From: Syntrophaceae bacterium
Lineage (GTDB): Bacteria > Desulfobacterota > Syntrophia > Syntrophales > UBA2210
Direction of reading: 5' to 3'
DNA: 15,841 nucleotides
NCBI GenBank assembly: GCA_030619435.1
Contig: JAUXBI010000006.1
Coordinates: 1-15,841 of the forward strand
The translations under genes and the position numbers were made by a program. Shown in pieces: positions 4,819 through 12,143 of the stretch. The notes under the pieces are model-generated. The model saw only the letters and a list, made by a program, of their open reading frames with translations. It made no database searches and was not told the DNA's origin. Positions within the stretch are counted from its first letter, which is position 1. Every line of letters begins with the position of its first letter.

Positions 4819-6480
4819 CTATTCTTTGAAGATTGCTCCCGTGCTGGCTGATGTAACCATCTTCGCGTACCTTCCAAGGTAGCCATGCCTTATCGCGGGT
4901 GGACGGGGAACATATGTCTTTCTCCTTGCATCCATTTCCTTGTCGCTTATCTTCAACTCGATAGTTTTGTTCGGGATATCGATGGCTATTCTGTCGCCCT
5001 CTCTGACAAGGCCGATAGGTCCTCCGTCAGCGGCCTCAGGAGATATATGCCCTATGGCAGCCCCTCTTGTGCCGCCGCTGAATCTTCCATCCGTCAGAAG
5101 AGCCACCGATTTATCAAGCCCCATCCCCGCGATGGCGGATGTGGGTGAAAGCATTTCACGCATCCCTGGCCCCCCTTTGGGACCCTCATAGCGTATGATC
5201 ACAACATCTCCGGGTTTTATTTCGCCTCCCATGATCGCGCTCATCGCCTCTTCCTCGGAATCGAACACACGGGCGGTTCCCTCATTTGTCATCATGTCGG
5301 GAGACACGGCCGACTGTTTGACCACAGCACCGTCGGGGGCAAGATTTCCCCTGAGTATCACGATACCTCCCTGCGTGCTGTAGGGATCTTTGACGGAACG
5401 TATTACATCCCGATTCTTGACCGAGGCAGTTTTAATATTGTCCCCCACGGTCTTTCCGGTCACTGTCGGACATTCAAGATCGATAACACCCAATGTACTT
5501 ATTTCCTTCATGACACCCTGTATGCCACCCGCCTCGTCAAGGTCTTCGAGGTGATGATGCCCGGCAGGGCTTAAATGGCACAGGTTGGGTGTTCTGCTGC
5601 TGATATCATTAAACAGGTCGAGATCCAGATCAATCCCGGCCTCATGAGCGATCGCCGGAATATGGAGAACGGTATTGGTAGAACAGCCAAGCGCCATATC
5701 AACGGCTATGGCATTCTTGAAGGCCTGAAACGTAGCTATATCTCTCGGTTTGATATCCTTTTCTACAAGATCCATCACCTGCATTCCGGCCTGTTTGGCA
5801 AGGCGCACGCGTGCGGCAGAGATGGACGGTATCGTCCCGTTTCCGGGCAGGCCTAACCCCAGAGCCTCGGTAACACAGTTCATGGAATTTGCGGTGAACA
5901 TGCCGGAGCAGGAACCGCTTCCGGGACACGCGCAATCCTCTAATGATTTGAGAGATTCCTCACTCATTTTGTTGGATTTTACCTCACCTACTCCTTCAAA
6001 AACGCTTATCAGGTCCACGGGCTTTCCGTTTAATTTTCCGGCCATCATCGGCCCTCCACTCACGACAATGGTCGGAATGTTAAGGCGAAGAGCCGCCATG
6101 AGCATTCCGGGAACAATCTTGTCGCAGTTGGTTACCATAACGAGACCGTCAAAGGGATGTGCCGTAGCCATAATTTCAATGGAATCGGCTATCAGTTCCC
6201 TGCTGGCAAGAGAGTATTTCATCCCGATGTGTCCCATGGCGATGCCGTCACACACCCCGATAGTAGGAAATGTCACCGGTGTGCCACCGGCCATCCTTAT
6301 GCCCGCCTTGACAGCCTCCGCAATCGTGTTGAGGTGGATATGTCCGGGAATAACTTCATTCGCGGAATTTACAACCCCTATCATGGGTCTGGCAAGTTCT
6401 TCATCGGTATATCCCATGGCTTTGTACAGGGAGCGGTGAGGAGCCCTCTCCAGCCCCTTTTTCATCAGATCACTTCTCAT
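4819..6480 (-). CDS. ilvD: Dihydroxy-acid dehydratase
   Basis: IlvD dehydrates 2,3-dihydroxy-isovalerate and 2,3-dihydroxy-3-methylvalerate to the 2-oxo acids, the third common step to valine and isoleucine. The 553 residues are full length for the short bacterial form. Family signatures include [11 protein letters not shown] with Cys119, and [18 protein letters not shown] with Cys185 and Cys191. Near the C-terminus are [13 protein letters not shown] and GHISPEA. At the N-terminal site where [2Fe-2S] dehydratases have a cysteine (PCNxHL), this protein reads PGHIHL, as in Escherichia coli. It therefore probably carries the oxygen-sensitive [4Fe-4S] cluster. The ATG at 6480 follows AAAGGTGA on the minus strand. 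It lies 61 bases downstream of ilvC in the same operon. Confidence 0.97.
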
Positions 6481-6541: not shown

Positions 6542-7597
6542 CTACTTCTTCCGCCGCTCGGGTCTGAGCTCGCGGAGTACTCTACCGGCCTGCCACATCT
6601 CCATATTCCTCATTGTATCCAGCTCTTCCTGAAGACGCTCGCGGTAATCAGGGGCACTGTTTGTATCAAGTACAATCTGCGTTTCCTTTCCGGATTTTAC
6701 GCTTTCATAGAGCTCATCGAAAACGGGAACGACGGCTTCACGAAATCTACCCTTCCAGTCAAGAGCTCCCCTCTGTGCTGTCGTACTGCAGTTTGCGTAC
6801 ATCCAATCCATGCCATTCTCTCCAACCAGGCGGATAAGACTCTGTGTAAGTTCTTCAACGGTTTCGTTAAAGGCCTCACTGGGACTGTGGCCGTTCTTCC
6901 TGAGGCAATTATACTGAGCCTCCATGACGCCTGCCAGACATCCCATGAGGACACCGCGCTCACCGGTCAGATCACTGTAGACCTCGTCATCAAAAGTGGT
7001 GGGGAAAAGGTAGCCCGAACCGACAGCAATTCCGATTGCGCAGGTTCTGTCGTAAGCACGTCCTGTGTAATCCTGGAATACGGCAATACTGGAATTGATT
7101 CCGCTTCCGTCAAGGAAGTTTCTTCGAACCGTCAAGCCTGACCCCTTGGGTGCAACCAGGATAACATCGATGTTGTCGGGTGGTATGATGCCGGTCTGTT
7201 CTTTATACACAATGGAGAAACCATGGGAGAAATAGAGAGCTTTCCCTTCGGTCAGGTACGGCTTGATTGCAGGCCACACCACTGCCTGTCCGGCATCGGA
7301 AAGCAACATCATAACAATCGTTCCTCGCTGAGCCGCTTCCTCAATCGGGAAAAGGGTTTCACCGGGCACGAAGCCGTCGGCAATGGCCTTATCCCAGTAT
7401 TCTCTCTCGCTTTCACGCTGCCCGATGATAACCTTGAACCCATTGTCAAGCATATTGAGGGCCTGTCCCGGTCCCTGCACTCCATAACCGAGAATGGCTA
7501 TGGTTTCATCTTTCAGTACCTCTCTGGTCTTCTCCAGAGTAAATTCCTCAACTGTAATAACCTCTTCAACGACTCCTCCGATTTCCAGTTTTGACAT
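6542..7597 (-). CDS. ilvC: Ketol-acid reductoisomerase, Bacteroidetes-like type
   Basis: IlvC isomerises and reduces acetolactate or acetohydroxybutyrate with NAD(P)H and Mg2+, the second common step. The 351 residues include a Rossmann dinucleotide loop GYGVQGPGQALN (about 38-48). The metal-site and substrate motifs read LVAPKGSG, SDLTGERG, NETVEELTQS and YANCSTTAQRGALDW. The GYGVQGPGQ form and the NGMDWMYANCSTTAQRGALDW block are, from memory, characteristic of Bacteroidetes and yeast-like enzymes. Typical proteobacterial class I proteins read GYGSQGHAHA. Two in-frame ATGs occur, at 7603 and 7597. AAGGAG lies one base before the first but seven before the second, so 7597 is the likely start. 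It stands 17 bases after the ilvN stop. Confidence 0.96.
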   Translation of the reverse strand: MSKLEIGGVVEEVITVEEFTLEKTREVLKDETIAILGYGVQGPGQALNMLDNGFKVIIGQRESEREYWDKAIADGFVPGETLFPIEEAAQRGTIVMMLLSDAGQAVVWPAIKPYLTEGKALYFSHGFSIVYKEQTGIIPPDNIDVILVAPKGSGLTVRRNFLDGSGINSSIAVFQDYTGRAYDRTCAIGIAVGSGYLFPTTFDDEVYSDLTGERGVLMGCLAGVMEAQYNCLRKNGHSPSEAFNETVEELTQSLIRLVGENGMDWMYANCSTTAQRGALDWKGRFREAVVPVFDELYESVKSGKETQIVLDTNSAPDYRERLQEELDTMRNMEMWQAGRVLRELRPERRKK

Positions 7598-7604
7598 TCT
7601 CATG

Positions 7605-7614: not shown

Positions 7615-8088
7615 TTATAAAGTTACTATTCCCGATCTGCTTACATCGTCTATACCAATAGCATCAAGTCTGGTCAAGGCCAGATCGATTTCTTCCCTAT
7701 CACCTGTTATCTCAACAACACAATAATCAGACTTTTTTACCACTACTCTGCATTTAAGCTCCTCAATAATCTTTGCGATTTCGGCCATGGCGCCCTCACG
7801 AAGTTTCATTCTAACCAGCGCCATCTCCCTCTGCGCGTACCTGCTTTCTCTCGGACGCGAAACCTTGATCACATCCACCAGTTTCTTGAGCTGTTTCTGA
7901 ATCTGGGTAACTGTTGCCGTATTCCCCATCGTTACGATGGTTATCTTTGTAATCCTGGGATCCATCGTTACATTAGCGCTGATATTTTCAATATTATACC
8001 CACGCCCGCTGAATATTCCCGCGATCCTGGCGAGTACATCAGGCCTGTTGTTCACCAAAATTGAAATTGTATGATTTCTTATATCCAT
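7615..8088 (-). CDS. ilvN: Acetolactate synthase small (regulatory) subunit
   Basis: The 157-residue product begins with an ACT domain: ISILVNNRPDVLARIAGIFSGRGYNIENISA, here noted by its NRPDVLARIAGIF core and GYNIENI turn. It continues with the second regulatory domain typical of IlvN/IlvH proteins (ALVRMKLREG and the EITGDREEID stretch). The small subunit binds the large subunit, raises its activity and confers valine feedback control. In the family, the effector sits at the ACT dimer interface. The ATG at 8088 follows TAAGGAG. The gene lies 30 bases after ilvB, in the usual ilvBN order. The length is normal and nothing appears broken. The symbol ilvH would be equally acceptable. Confidence 0.95.
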   Translation of the reverse strand: MDIRNHTISILVNNRPDVLARIAGIFSGRGYNIENISANVTMDPRITKITIVTMGNTATVTQIQKQLKKLVDVIKVSRPRESRYAQREMALVRMKLREGAMAEIAKIIEELKCRVVVKKSDYCVVEITGDREEIDLALTRLDAIGIDDVSRSGIVTL

Positions 8089-8118: not shown

Positions 8119-9798
8119 CTATCCAAGGCTTATATCCGTCAGGGAAGAACCCGGCGTAACCATGGGGAAAACCCCCTCTTCCGGATCTACCACAAAATCC
8201 ATTATTACGGGACCCGGTGTTTCCAGCCCTTTTCTGAGGATGGATTCCACCTCCTCTGGCTTGTCGGTCCTCAGACCTACAGCACCGTACGCCTCCGCCA
8301 CTTTCACAAAATCGGGTATCTGGCTGAGTTTTGAGTGGGAATACCTCTTGTCGTAGAAAAGTTCCTGCCACTGACGTATCATCCCAAGATATCCGTTATT
8401 AAGAATCACGATCTTAACAGGAAGCTTATAGTTAACGGCCGTGGCCAGCTCCTGTATATTCATCTGTATACTTCCGTCCCCGGCAATATCAACAACCGTC
8501 CTGTCCGGAAATGCCACCTGGGCACCGATAGCAGCGGGAAAGCCATAACCCATGGTACCCAGTCCCCCCGATGTAAGAAAATTATTCGGACGATCAATAT
8601 GATAATAATGGGCCGCCCAAATCTGATTCTGGCCAACTTCCGTGGCCACGATAGCATTGCCATTGGTAAGCTGATGCAATTTCTCTATTACGCTCTGGGG
8701 CTTTATTAACTCGCTCCTGCCATAGCGCAGAGGCGCTTCGGATTTCCACTTGTCTATTTGATCAAGCCACTCTTTTCTCTCTTTGTCTGAGACGGTGTAG
8801 CCATCCTTCATCTGTTTATTAAACCATTGGATGGCGGGCCGGCAGTCACCGACTATCGGCATATGCGTGGGCACAACCTTGTTGATTGATGCGGCGTCAA
8901 TGTCAACCTGGACAATCTTTGCATTTGGGGCAAATTCCGACAGTTTTCCCGTGATCCGATCTGAAAAGCGTACACCCAAAGCAATCAGAAGATCACAGTT
9001 ACCGATTGCCATGTTCGCGTAGAACGTTCCATGCATTCCCAATATGCCGAGCCACAGAGGATCAGTTCCCGGAAAACCGCCGATACCCATAAGGGTAGAG
9101 GCAACAGGGATACGCAGCATCCTGGCAAATTCTTTCAGCTCTTCAGAAGCACCGCCCAGAATAACGCCTCCGCCTGTAAGCACGAGGGGTTTTTTCGCCT
9201 CCTTTATAAGCTCCAGAGCCTGGCGTAACTGATCAGTATCCGGAACGACGGAATCCTGCAGATCCTGTTTGGGAGCGATTGTTGCTGTAAACTCTGTTTT
9301 CGCCTGCATGACATCCTTGGGCAAATCAACCAGCACCGGTCCCGGACGTCCGGACCGTGCTATGTGAAATGCGTCTCTTACCGTTTCGGCGAGGTCTTCA
9401 ACACGCCTGACCAGGAAATTATGTTTGGTGCAGGGTCTCGTTATACCGGTAATGTCGGCTTCCTGAAAGGCGTCGGTGCCTATATGTGATGTGGGAACCT
9501 GCCCGGTAAATATCACCATAGGAACGGAATCCATGTATGCCGTTGCTATGCCGGTAACGGTATTGGTGGCCCCCGGCCCGGATGTTACAAGACATACCCC
9601 CACTTTGCCCGATGCCCTCGCATATCCATCGGCAGCGTGCGCCGCACCCTGTTCATGACGAACCAGGATATGCTTGATATTCACCTTGTATATCTCATCA
9701 TATATATCGAGCACTGCACCACCGGGATAGCCGAAGATGGTATCCACCCCTTCCTCTAGCAATGTTTCCATAAGAATACGCGACCCTGTAAGTTTCAC
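8119..9798 (-). CDS. ilvB: Acetolactate synthase large (catalytic) subunit
   Basis: IlvB condenses two pyruvates, or pyruvate and 2-oxobutyrate, using thiamine diphosphate, FAD and Mg2+. This is the first common step of branched-chain amino acid synthesis. The 559 residues contain GYPGGAVLDIYD, the catalytic Glu49 in RHEQGAAHAADGYARA, and TSGPGATNTVTGIATA. The C-terminal thiamine diphosphate site reads GDGSIQMN...NNGYLGMIRQWQ. The start codon is GTG at 9798, supported by AGGAGGA about seven bases ahead on the minus strand; there is no better ATG. It is the first structural gene after an attenuator, so its expression is expected to respond to charged tRNA-Ile. The symbol ilvI would be an equivalent name. 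Confidence 0.97.
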   Translation of the reverse strand: MKLTGSRILMETLLEEGVDTIFGYPGGAVLDIYDEIYKVNIKHILVRHEQGAAHAADGYARASGKVGVCLVTSGPGATNTVTGIATAYMDSVPMVIFTGQVPTSHIGTDAFQEADITGITRPCTKHNFLVRRVEDLAETVRDAFHIARSGRPGPVLVDLPKDVMQAKTEFTATIAPKQDLQDSVVPDTDQLRQALELIKEAKKPLVLTGGGVILGGASEELKEFARMLRIPVASTLMGIGGFPGTDPLWLGILGMHGTFYANMAIGNCDLLIALGVRFSDRITGKLSEFAPNAKIVQVDIDAASINKVVPTHMPIVGDCRPAIQWFNKQMKDGYTVSDKERKEWLDQIDKWKSEAPLRYGRSELIKPQSVIEKLHQLTNGNAIVATEVGQNQIWAAHYYHIDRPNNFLTSGGLGTMGYGFPAAIGAQVAFPDRTVVDIAGDGSIQMNIQELATAVNYKLPVKIVILNNGYLGMIRQWQELFYDKRYSHSKLSQIPDFVKVAEAYGAVGLRTDKPEEVESILRKGLETPGPVIMDFVVDPEEGVFPMVTPGSSLTDISLG

Positions 9799-9829
9799 TC
9801 TAGTTCCTCCTGTACCTTTTTAATTCTCC

Positions 9830-9864
9830 AAAAAAAAACCGCTGCCGGGACCGGCAACGGTTTT
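9830..9864 (-). terminator. Intrinsic terminator (attenuator) of the ilv operon
   Basis: On the minus strand AAACCGTTGCCGG (9851-9863) pairs with CCGGCAGCGGTTT (9836-9848), with one G-U pair among 13. A run of nine T residues (9830-9838), which overlaps the 3' arm, completes it. This is a standard rho-independent terminator lying about 30 bases before the ilvB start and after the leader peptide stop. Termination inside the leader of an amino acid operon is the hallmark of attenuation. Confidence 0.9.
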
Positions 9865-9900
9865 GATGCTGAACGTATGTAAAAAAATCAAACCATTGCC
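9853..9900 (-). promoter_or_regulatory. Antiterminator pairing of the ilv leader
   Basis: Read on the minus strand, GGCAATGGTTT (9890-9900), the last codons of the leader peptide, is complementary over 11 pairs with one G-U to AAACCGTTGCC (9853-9863). The latter is the 5' arm of the terminator. The two structures exclude each other. A ribosome stalled upstream on Ile codons would leave the first segment free and form the antiterminator. A ribosome that reaches the stop at 9888-9890 would cover it and let the terminator fold. Confidence 0.8.
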
Positions 9901-9986
9901 CATCCCCCATATGCAAAGGAGGTAATTATAAGTACCCCTATAATTATAATTGCTATCTGGATATTTGCCGTTTTGATCTTTTCCAT
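9888..9986 (-). CDS. Ile-rich leader peptide of the ilv operon (attenuation peptide)
   Basis: This is a 32-residue open frame from ATG (9984-9986) to TGA (9888-9890). Ile is at positions 4, 9, 11, 13-16, 20 and 21, with Val18 and Leu19. Ten of the thirteen residues from 9 to 21 are branched-chain amino acids, and four of the nine Ile codons are the usually rare ATA. It plays the same part as ilvL of enterobacteria, although the sequence is not the same: the ribosome senses charged branched-chain tRNA while translating it. A weak GAGAG site stands just before the ATG. A promoter lies upstream and an attenuator follows the stop. The peptide is also hydrophobic enough to be a small membrane protein, but its position makes the leader role far more likely. 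Confidence 0.85.
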   Translation of the reverse strand: MEKIKTANIQIAIIIIGVLIITSFAYGGWAMV

Positions 9987-10004
9987 ATCTCTCACTTGGG
10001 CGAG

Positions 10005-10033
10005 CTTATATAACAGGCGAATCGCACTGTCAA
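10005..10033 (-). promoter_or_regulatory. Sigma70-type promoter of the ilv operon
   Basis: On the minus strand a perfect -35 TTGACA (10028-10033) is followed by exactly 17 bases and a -10 TATAAG (10005-10010, five of six consensus bases). Transcription should start near 9997-9999, about a dozen bases before the leader peptide ATG. It lies in the 84-base gap between the nrdD stop and the leader, so ilv expression need not depend on nrdD. Confidence 0.82.
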
Positions 10034-10070: not shown

Positions 10071-12143
10071 TCAGAAACTGCCAAAAGCACGCCCCTGTTT
10101 TTTCCTGTCTCTCAGTTCTGCCAGTTTTCCCTTGTTCCAACTCGATACCCTGGAAAAATATCCCGCGACCCTGGTAATTCCCTCTACGTTTTCCGAGCCG
10201 CAATGAGGACAAGCGCTTTTGATGCCCCGGGATGTCCTGTTACAATCCAGGCAGGTGGTAAACTCAGGTGAAAACACGACATGCTGATTTTTGGTCTTTC
10301 TGAAAACCTTTGCAATAAACCCGGCCAGGGTTTCTTTATCCGGTTTTGTATTGCCCAACCATATACATGTTGCGGCATTCCCCTCTATGAAAGGATGAAG
10401 ATCACCTTCAAGCGCCACCCTTTCGAATGGATCCGTGGGAGAGGATACCGCAAGAAACGTTGAGTTAGTATAATATATCTCTCCCCTCGATATGTCACCT
10501 CTCACAAAATGTCCCGCCGTCGGAGAAAAATGTTTCAGATCCAGCCGGGCCAGCCTGTAAGGCATGCTCTCCGCGGGGGACTGCTCCAGGATAAACTTTA
10601 TTCCATGCTTCTCTGTCAGTCTGTCCGCAACATCTTTTATATACGCGACAATATCACGGCCAAATTTGCGTGCATCCTCTGATTCATGAAGCTGGCAGCC
10701 CTTATGCACCCAGACCAGTTCATTGAGACCAATCATTCCCATAAGATATGTGCACCGGCTCATCCTCAGGTATGGCGTATGATCATAATCCATTGTAAGG
10801 AGCGATAAGGGTCCCTCTTCGCCATGCGACAGGAGTTTCTCAATAAAAACTCTTTTCTGCAGATGGGCTTTTGCGGCAAGTTCCATAATATCTGAAAGCA
10901 TGGAGAAGAGCTTCTTATCATCTCCTCCTGCCTTATATCCCAGCCTGGGTAGATTTATTGATATATTCTGGATGGCAAAGTAGCGCATCTTCCATGGCTC
11001 GCCGGTATCCGCCTTCTCTTCTCTGCCTGTCATATTCAGATTACAACATTCGGACAGATTAAGGGTGTCATTCCGGTCAAAGATAAAGTGAGGATTCCCC
11101 TTCTCCGCCGCCACATCACAGGCAGAGCGAAGAAATTCCCCATGGCCGGATGTCTGAAAGAACTTCTCCGTTATATGCAAAAACGGTCTGGGAAAAACAA
11201 AGGGTTGGCCTGCGGCGTCTCCCTTCCTGAATGCCTCAAATAGTGCCCGGATAAATCTCTGGGCGTCCGCCTCATACTCCTTGTATGTCTTACCGGTATA
11301 TTTTCCACCCGGCCCTATGGCGGGAACATCTTCGAAGTGCCGGGGAACTTCCCAATAGAGGTGTACATCGGTAAATATCGTCTGCCCCCCTCTGCCGACA
11401 GCCTGCTGGGCAAATTCATAGATCAGCCTTTGCGCAAGCTGCATTACCTCCCGGTCGGTCAATTCCTCCAGATAGGGAGCAAAGAACAGATTAACGGCAT
11501 CCCATCCTATGGCCCCGGCAAAGTTTCCCTGAAGAGCAGCGGCAAATCTCACCATGTGTGACAGCAGCACATCCGCGTGTCTGGCCGGTTGGGCGACGGC
11601 GAGTGAATTGGGAAGATTCAGGCCGAATTTCTTTATATATTCGAGAGATTGACAGGAACAGTAGGGTCTGTCTACATATCCAAGGTTATGTATATGTACA
11701 TCCCCCGTCATGTGAGCATATCCAACATCCTCTGAAAAGACATTAAGGATTGCAAATTCTTTTTTGATACCCTGAGCCAGGGTAAGGTTTGTGCCCTCCG
11801 GACTATGGGGTATATTGGCGTTTTCCTTATTGCGGTACAGTATGAGCTGCCCCACGTCATAGAGAGGAAATCCCAGGCGGGCATGCAGCTTCGTCGCATT
11901 TTTCATACCCCTCTCGATAAGCCTCGCATCCACCAGTTCCCTTATCAGCGAGGCGGTAAGAATATCGATTCCTGACGCCGCTATCCGGGTTTCTACCTCC
12001 CTGCTTATCTCCTCCGCCGTATCAAGATCGACACCAGCCTCACGGATCAGGGCATCGACAATCTTCCGTCTGTCCCAACCGGTTATATCTTCTCCTGACG
12101 TCCTGACAAAGAGAGCTAGATCTGTTGTTTCATTTTTTACCAT
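10071..12143 (-). CDS. nrdD: Anaerobic ribonucleoside-triphosphate reductase
   Basis: NrdD reduces ribonucleoside triphosphates to deoxy forms by glycyl-radical chemistry, without oxygen. The 690 residues begin with an ATP-cone allosteric domain (about 8-90: LALFVRTSGEDITGWDRRKI). The catalytic barrel shows HIHNLGYVDRPYCSCQSLEY and DTLNLSECCNLNMTGR. A C-terminal zinc ribbon has CLDC at 631-634 and CPHC at 645-648. The glycyl-radical loop is RVAGYFSRVSSWNKGK, with the radical Gly at about 661. The length and the WNKGK ending fit the thermotogal/deltaproteobacterial type more than the Escherichia coli one. The ATG at 12143 has an AGGA site ten bases ahead. It is transcribed toward ilv but ends 84 bases before the leader, which has its own promoter. 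The activating enzyme gene nrdG is not next to it. Confidence 0.96.
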   Translation of the reverse strand: MVKNETTDLALFVRTSGEDITGWDRRKIVDALIREAGVDLDTAEEISREVETRIAASGIDILTASLIRELVDARLIERGMKNATKLHARLGFPLYDVGQLILYRNKENANIPHSPEGTNLTLAQGIKKEFAILNVFSEDVGYAHMTGDVHIHNLGYVDRPYCSCQSLEYIKKFGLNLPNSLAVAQPARHADVLLSHMVRFAAALQGNFAGAIGWDAVNLFFAPYLEELTDREVMQLAQRLIYEFAQQAVGRGGQTIFTDVHLYWEVPRHFEDVPAIGPGGKYTGKTYKEYEADAQRFIRALFEAFRKGDAAGQPFVFPRPFLHITEKFFQTSGHGEFLRSACDVAAEKGNPHFIFDRNDTLNLSECCNLNMTGREEKADTGEPWKMRYFAIQNISINLPRLGYKAGGDDKKLFSMLSDIMELAAKAHLQKRVFIEKLLSHGEEGPLSLLTMDYDHTPYLRMSRCTYLMGMIGLNELVWVHKGCQLHESEDARKFGRDIVAYIKDVADRLTEKHGIKFILEQSPAESMPYRLARLDLKHFSPTAGHFVRGDISRGEIYYTNSTFLAVSSPTDPFERVALEGDLHPFIEGNAATCIWLGNTKPDKETLAGFIAKVFRKTKNQHVVFSPEFTTCLDCNRTSRGIKSACPHCGSENVEGITRVAGYFSRVSSWNKGKLAELRDRKKQGRAFGSF

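Follow-up and report, generated by a model that had tools for sequence, protein, structure and literature searches.

The leader region of this ilv operon raises the question of how the operon is regulated and which amino acid is measured. The window, i.e. the whole stretch of 15,841 nucleotides analysed here, is derived from a Syntrophaceae bacterium whose assembly comprises 1.6 Mb and is 80.6% complete. Its minus strand encodes the large subunit of acetolactate synthase (ilvB, 8119-9798; TIGR00118 match, start GTG at 9798, ribosome binding site GGAGG read from the sequence at 9806-9810), the small subunit (ilvN, 7615-8088), ketol-acid reductoisomerase (ilvC, 6542-7603) and dihydroxy-acid dehydratase (ilvD, 4819-6480), in the order ilvB-ilvN-ilvC-ilvD. 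The next gene upstream (10071-12143, minus strand) resembles an anaerobic ribonucleotide reductase by eye, and its stop lies about 40 bases ahead of the -35 hexamer described below.

A preliminary description had proposed a ribosome-mediated attenuator in front of ilvB. Our comparison of related sequences supports this proposal, and we assign a probability of roughly 0.92 to the reading that the ilvBNCD element is a ribosome-mediated transcription attenuator measuring charged isoleucyl-tRNA. The feature is a classical attenuator in a little-studied group, and its interest lies in its regulon and in a traceable change of the measured amino acid.

Putative promoter, leader peptide and hairpins of the window

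The promoter hexamers given in the preliminary description are present base for base on the minus strand (10005-10033): TTGACA at 10033-10028, a spacer of 17 bases and TATAAG at 10010-10005. A consensus promoter scan of the window, which demands T as the last base of the -10 element, reported none, and we therefore regard the ilv leader promoter as plausible; TTGACA is also found upstream in 13 family rows by a script that searched for exactly that string, and the -10 is weak. Downstream lies an open reading frame of 32 codons plus stop (9888-9986, minus strand; ATG 9986-9984, TGA 9890-9888) with the product MEKIKTANIQIAIIIIGVLIITSFAYGGWAMV. As described earlier, it holds nine Ile codons (three ATT, two ATC and four ATA), and the main control-codon block IIIIGVLII (ATT ATA ATT ATA .. 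ATA ATT) occupies 9924-9950. Its ribosome site, AAGTGAG, is weak by eye.

The earlier reading of both hairpins was also reproduced base for base. An intrinsic terminator (9830-9864, minus strand) stands ahead of the first structural gene, with 13 pairs at 9864-9835 (-20.9 kcal/mol; z -5.5 against 200 shuffles) and a run of nine T at 9838-9830; a terminator scan finds one such site vs 0.1 expected. The antiterminator joins 9900-9890, running from the last leader codons to the first base of the stop, with 9863-9853, inside the 5' arm of the terminator, by 11 pairs including one G-U. The local fold lengthens it to 9903-9887 x 9867-9850, with interruptions.

The mechanism suggested by this arrangement is ordinary ribosome-mediated attenuation, for which we infer the transcription start, leader translation, stalling and termination. 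When isoleucine is plentiful, the ribosome would reach the stop codon and cover 9900-9890, so that the terminator at 9864-9835 forms. When isoleucine is scarce, the ribosome would stall at 9950-9924 and leave the strand 9900-9890 free to pair with 9863-9853, by which the terminator would be blocked and ilvBNCD transcribed.

The preliminary description had further suggested that, given the four ATA codons, a rare AUA-reading tRNA-Ile could be part of the sensor. This idea fails for the window genome, where ATA is the commonest Ile codon: among 3040 Ile codons from 96 open reading frames of the window and 20 contig stretches of the same genome, ATA makes up 39.6%, ATC 31.7% and ATT 28.7%, so that four ATA of nine in the leader equals background. 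A tRNA search of the 80.6%-complete assembly gave 26 matches, among which no tRNA-Ile was recovered and one CAT tRNA was called Met.

Conservation, covariation and folding model

The GTDB family of the window genome is represented by 19 genomes in our set, and the ilvB start with its upstream sequence could be obtained from 13 of them. An Ile-rich leader with an Ile-dominated block precedes the same terminator core in all 13, the leader frame being kept throughout; the loci L105 and L006 have the same leader. Among 119 genomes searched across the order, 88 contain an ilvB orthologue (E <= 1e-180), and 73 upstream regions from outside the family bring the total to 86 loci. At 79 of these (one, L139, is unreadable) we could assign a core together with a leader, and at seven we could not. 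Two cores occur in the order: an Ile-type core, AACCGTTACC..GGTAACGGTT with a 5' strand around GGTGATGGT, and a Val-type core, GAGCCGCGGGC..GCCCGCGGCTT with the 5' strand GGGGACCGCTGCTCG. Leaders were chosen as the open reading frame near the core richest in Ile, Leu and Val, a choice biased to branched-chain leaders and not to Ile over Val. Before the counts, we dropped L139 for an N in its leader region, L148 because of a contig end, L168 and L174 because their core lies so far upstream that the 420-base limit cut the leader off, four loci of family f19 without a leader before ilvB, and L332 (no Val leader found), whose genome nevertheless holds a Val core in the core-model search. L194 was left out of alignment A1 and L325 and L292 out of A2, and G029, which has two ilvB loci, was counted twice.

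The alignments bear out the check for covariation that the preliminary description had proposed, clearly for the terminator and more weakly for the antiterminator. In 42 distinct sequences with the Ile-type core before ilvB, 378 of 378 terminator cells and 358 of 378 antiterminator cells are paired, some core pairs being fixed by the search because the collecting motifs include part of the core. In 29 Ile-core sequences (of 30 references), 97.7% of 348 terminator cells are paired vs 21-58% in slid controls, with 22 compensatory cells, a number matched by none of 500 shuffles. For the antiterminator of the same sequences, the values are 89.9% of 377 cells (slid controls 26-62%) and 12 compensatory cells, a count reached by 8 of 500 shuffles, the covariation score being reached by 3 of 500. 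The 30 Val-core sequences behave similarly, with 94.0% of 300 terminator cells paired and seven compensatory (0 of 500 shuffles), and 93.6% of 390 antiterminator cells paired and eight compensatory (2 of 500). Both of these sets, too, come from searches with motifs that include part of the cores. Pairs changed on both sides are unexceptional in either antiterminator, 174 (Ile) and 210 (Val) of 500 shuffles being as high. The modest covariation of an antiterminator that shares the terminator 5' arm, taken together with conservation and geometry, supports the earlier claim that the two hairpins are mutually exclusive, and the element is real and conserved.

Three other readings of the region are much less probable. 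Since the upstream gene at 10071-12143 lies close by on the same strand, the hairpin could be a mere terminator of that gene or an insulation against read-through; we regard this as highly improbable, because promoter-like sequence and the leader separate that gene from the hairpin, and the element remains in front of ilvB at loci with other upstream genes. Little more can be said for a functional small membrane protein followed by a plain terminator. The window peptide is hydrophobic and, by eye, could span a membrane, but residues outside the Ile/Val block differ between families, peptide C-termini track the antiterminator sequence, and stop positions or the frame shift while the RNA strand stays (L111, L087, L021). 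A T-box, a riboswitch or a protein-bound leader is the least probable of all: such systems are generally known to use terminator/antiterminator pairs as well, but no Rfam family, T-box and amino-acid leaders included, exceeds its gathering cut-off in the window or in 12 relative loci. At a lax threshold, the lowest E-value in the leader region, 0.002, belongs to a rhizobial sRNA on the opposite strand, which scores 19.9 bits vs a cut-off of 40.

To model stalling in the attenuator, we masked a ribosome footprint codon by codon and folded the transcript to just past strand 3. In the window, every stall at a codon up to 24 gives a predicted antiterminator probability of 0.97, and every stall between codon 27 and the stop a probability of 0, in agreement with the earlier proposal that a finishing ribosome masks the antiterminator strand; a ribosome on the control codons would leave that strand free. 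Averaged over 44 Ile-core leaders, stalls on Ile codons give 0.83 and stalls on the last four codons 0.02, the former value being the higher one in all 44; for 79 Val-core leaders, the averages are 0.55 on Val/Leu codons and 0.08 on the last four, with the same order in 71. However, the Ile codons do not stand out in the model, because the untranslated leader and stalls on the first codons also favour the antiterminator: without a ribosome, the probability is 0.97 in the window and averages 0.64 (Ile-core) and 0.66 (Val-core), and stalls on the first three codons give means of 0.88 and 0.72. Control-codon stalls exceed the no-ribosome value in 36 of 44 Ile-core and 14 of 79 Val-core leaders. 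The equilibrium model thus speaks for masking at the stop; it gives no support to default termination of an untranslated leader.

Untranslated termination might be restored by the kinetic advantage of a long-range helix that is complete before strand 3 exists. In the fold of the window, the leader start region S1 (9972-9988, minus strand) pairs with the stop region at 9876-9892 (shuffle p 0.007), overlapping the 3' end of the antiterminator strand, as a possible anti-antiterminator. Among 13 Ile-core leaders, taken from family members and L005, seven give a shuffle p under 0.05; when start regions were exchanged, that of the window itself did better than only 9 of the 12 others. In the order-wide test, where L002 and L288 were skipped and several Val-core rows of f13 look misanchored, z falls below -2 for 21 of the 44 leaders with an Ile core and for 33 of the 79 with a Val core, and the own partner is preferred to one from another family with median ranks of 0.75 and 0.87 (p 1.7e-4 and 1.8e-8, kinship uncorrected). 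No sign of the helix was seen in f11, f16, f20 and f21 (Ile-core) or in f19 and f6 (Val-core).

Two local hairpins, which like the long-range helix are absent from the preliminary description, are further possible elements in the fold. H1 (9923-9946, minus strand) covers the Ile codons with 10 pairs. In a synonymous-arrangement test of the leader minus its last five codons, the mean z is -2.05 in the window's family and between -0.7 and +1.2 in other families; all 43 Ile-core leaders give -0.68 (p 3e-4), driven mainly by the window's family, and 79 Val-core leaders give no signal (0.01). H1 was therefore rejected as an order-wide element, clear support being confined to the window's family. 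H2 (CCUCC/GGGGG, 9904-9922, minus strand) lies right behind the control codons, and its fold in the window is no better than that of shuffles (139 of 200 equally good).

Probable sister attenuators at cimA and ilvB2N2

The ilvBNCD attenuator is probably one of three in a branched-chain regulon, in which cimA would be controlled by Ile, ilvBNCD by Ile or Val, and ilvB2N2 by Val/Leu. A covariance model of the Ile-type core matches in 102 of 155 genomes of the class, and in many of them a second site lies apart from ilvB. We picked 20 of these second sites, and 19 precede a citramalate synthase gene (63-75% identical to a citramalate synthase; L414 matches TIGR00977). The product of cimA catalyses the committed step to isoleucine from pyruvate, and the cimA leaders are Ile-rich, also in f5, f6, f9, f12 and f14, where the ilvBNCD leader is Val-type. 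The part of cimA in the regulon of the window organism is inferred from relatives, four of them in the same genus, because cimA was not found in the window's own assembly (80.6% complete; search without positive control). Between the two attenuators, strand exchange would cost about 5 kcal/mol in either direction, own duplexes giving -15.4 (cimA) and -14.7 (ilvB) and cross duplexes -9.7 both ways; the cimA value is favoured because its 5' strand was selected by best duplex.

In a phylum-wide sample of 297 genomes, the Ile-core model matches 29, of which 22 lie outside the order. Fifteen outside loci were fetched, with six matches at ilvD, six at cimA, one at ilvB, one at leuA and one, L411, elsewhere; seven of the loci yielded leaders of mixed Ile/Leu/Val type. 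The leuA-like gene, at L415, is 48% identical to E. coli LeuA. In L021 and L029, two delta-proteobacterial MAGs outside the family, ilvB is preceded by a mixed Ile/Leu/Val leader and a terminator whose sequence, CCGTTATC, is closely similar. These terminators and the phylum-wide matches suggest that the Ile-type core is older than the order. A terminator scan of 78 other genome-contig loci (besides L005 and L006) reported a terminator upstream of ilvB in two (L029 and L063), which is an undercount because the L021 terminator was missed.

The third member precedes ilvB2N2. The paralogue ilvB2, an acetolactate synthase about 46% identical to ilvB, was found in 51 of 119 genomes, and ilvB2N2 has a Val/Leu attenuator with the different, Val-type core. 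A leader stands beside the Val core at 49 of 50 ilvB2 loci, being Val/Leu-type at 45 and mixed at four of f19; the control regions of the 45 contain on average 0.62 Ile, 6.71 Val and 3.42 Leu codons. From 30 sequences we trained a Val-core model, which has matches in 129 of 155 genomes; 126 of these have exactly one match, and G147, G020 and G039 show weak second ones (E 1.6e-5 to 9.6e-5). In the window's own genome, the Val core precedes ilvB2 (C108). Upstream of ilvB2 in L002, L113 and L119-L121, a second terminator-like stem (AAAGCCGC..GCGGCTTTTTT or similar) directly follows the Val-core terminator, as a putative tandem terminator. In one genome of the genus, a gene resembling isoleucyl-tRNA synthetase by eye (L273:3009-5804) lies slightly downstream of ilvB2N2.

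Leader type, the duplicate gene and known attenuators

The leader type of ilvBNCD mostly follows the presence of ilvB2. Where ilvB2 is present, the leaders are Ile-dominated at 32 loci and Val-dominated at one (f7); where it was not found, 35 of 45 loci are Val-dominated, seven Ile-dominated and three ties (Fisher p 4e-13, kinship ignored). By family and state, with ties counted as Val, Ile:Val is 8:1 with ilvB2 and 4:8 without. For the seven Ile-dominated genomes in which ilvB2 was not found, searching at a looser threshold (E <= 1e-70) recovered ilvB alone, with an additional 33% match in G099; the assemblies of these seven are 78-98% complete, so that a few of the absences may be gaps.

Where ilvB2 was not found and the leader is Val-type, ilvBNCD is preceded either by a Val core, partly at the same tatC-PBP locus, or by an Ile-type core with Val codons. 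A class A penicillin-binding protein (PBP) gene lies upstream of Val core-ilvB2N2-ilvBNCD at eight of nine tandem loci examined (seven with an Ile core between, that of f19 without), upstream of Val core-ilvBNCD at 6 of 10 loci (in f10 about 1.25 kb away), and upstream of three of four f12 operons, which carry the Ile-type core with Val codons (one about 2 kb away). tatC precedes the PBP gene where the stretch reaches far enough (Pfam on L341). The arrangement PBP-Val core-ilvBNCD is what deletion of ilvB2N2 and the Ile core would leave; in f14, f6 and one f9 locus, the PBP neighbour that would point to such a deletion is missing. In the ilvB gene tree, f10 falls in a supported clade of mostly Ile-type operons (100/99), and the other Val-type families group with f7 and f12 in a weaker one (86/82). 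Since f10 stands apart, at least two changes of leader type are suggested.

The Val-core leaders that stand alone before ilvBNCD differ in Ile content from those before ilvB2. Their control regions hold 2.67 Ile codons on average in 33 leaders, compared with 0.62 before ilvB2, and the four f19 leaders preceding ilvB2N2 and ilvBNCD in one run hold 5.5. By family, the two Val-core sets do not overlap, although the margin is minimal (closest means both about 1.4; 9 vs 7 families, p 0.0005).

It therefore seems that the measured amino acid was reassigned upon loss of the duplicate enzyme gene. We give even odds to a more specific rule, by which each leader measures what matches the operons that it alone serves. 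In the ancestor, the arrangement tatC-PBP-Val core-ilvB2N2-Ile core-ilvBNCD would have been accompanied by an Ile core at cimA. On at least two occasions, ilvB2N2 would have been lost together with the Ile core, so that ilvBNCD came under the Val core; elsewhere, the Val core would have been lost and the Ile-type core would have taken Val codons (f12); sole or fused Val-core leaders would then have gained Ile codons. If this is true, sensor specificity was re-set by deletion or codon replacement inside a kept RNA switch, with no new regulator. With this set of relatives, the general question of how a regulatory switch changes its measured metabolite becomes approachable by sequence, since control codons, RNA core and paralogue content are each traceable over the 119 to 155 genomes searched.

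The window attenuator was not found described in the open-licence literature searched; what is new beyond it is the Ile-type core at cimA, the Val/Leu attenuator at ilvB2N2 and the shift of leader type without ilvB2. Proteobacterial attenuators were reportedly surveyed in 2004 by Vitreschak and others. Attenuation at E. coli ilvGMEDA and ilvBN is stated in a passage of PMC1183508. Compared by leader only, the E. coli ilvL attenuator (ilvXGMEDA; NC_000913) likewise has a branched-chain-codon leader before an ilv operon, although Ile, Val and Leu codons are mixed in it and isoleucine is encoded five times by ATT or ATC and never by ATA. In Corynebacterium glutamicum, the three-hairpin attenuator of ilvBNC, as described in part of PMC11857589, likewise comprises terminator, antiterminator and anti-antiterminator, with CUU and GUA as control codons; the likeness is one of description, its 15-residue mixed leader MTIIRLVVVTARRLP coming from another organism group. 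Short reading frames with Ile/Val/Leu runs and terminators at ilvB occur likewise in actinobacteria, where a section of PMC1262725 calls the mode of regulation unclear and reports that substituting possible regulatory codons of the Streptomyces coelicolor ilvB leader had no effect. By analogy, this negative result would count against the attenuation reading here. PMC2965389 provides a precedent for sensor exchange and for paralogues with leaders: it reports genes at which T-box and leader peptide have replaced one another, as well as His leaders at paralogues of hisS. What changes in those cases is the kind of sensor; in the order studied here, the kind is kept and the measured amino acid seems to change.

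Control codons themselves are chosen unevenly across the order. Relative to expectations derived from the open reading frames of the fetched ilv loci, the leaders contain 194 ATT, 173 ATC and 112 ATA (expected 135, 277 and 67), so that ATA is above expectation and still the least used of the three Ile codons. For valine, GTA occurs 385 times vs 79 expected and GTG 17 times vs 173. By these counts, it is GTA and not ATA that stands out as a control codon in the group, and this preference could serve to test the selective-charging theory of how control codons are chosen (PMC1183508). The E. coli ivbL attenuator (ilvBN) has a Val-rich leader before an acetolactate synthase operon, as at ilvB2N2 here, but its Val codons are GTG and GTC, whereas the leaders of the order prefer GTA.
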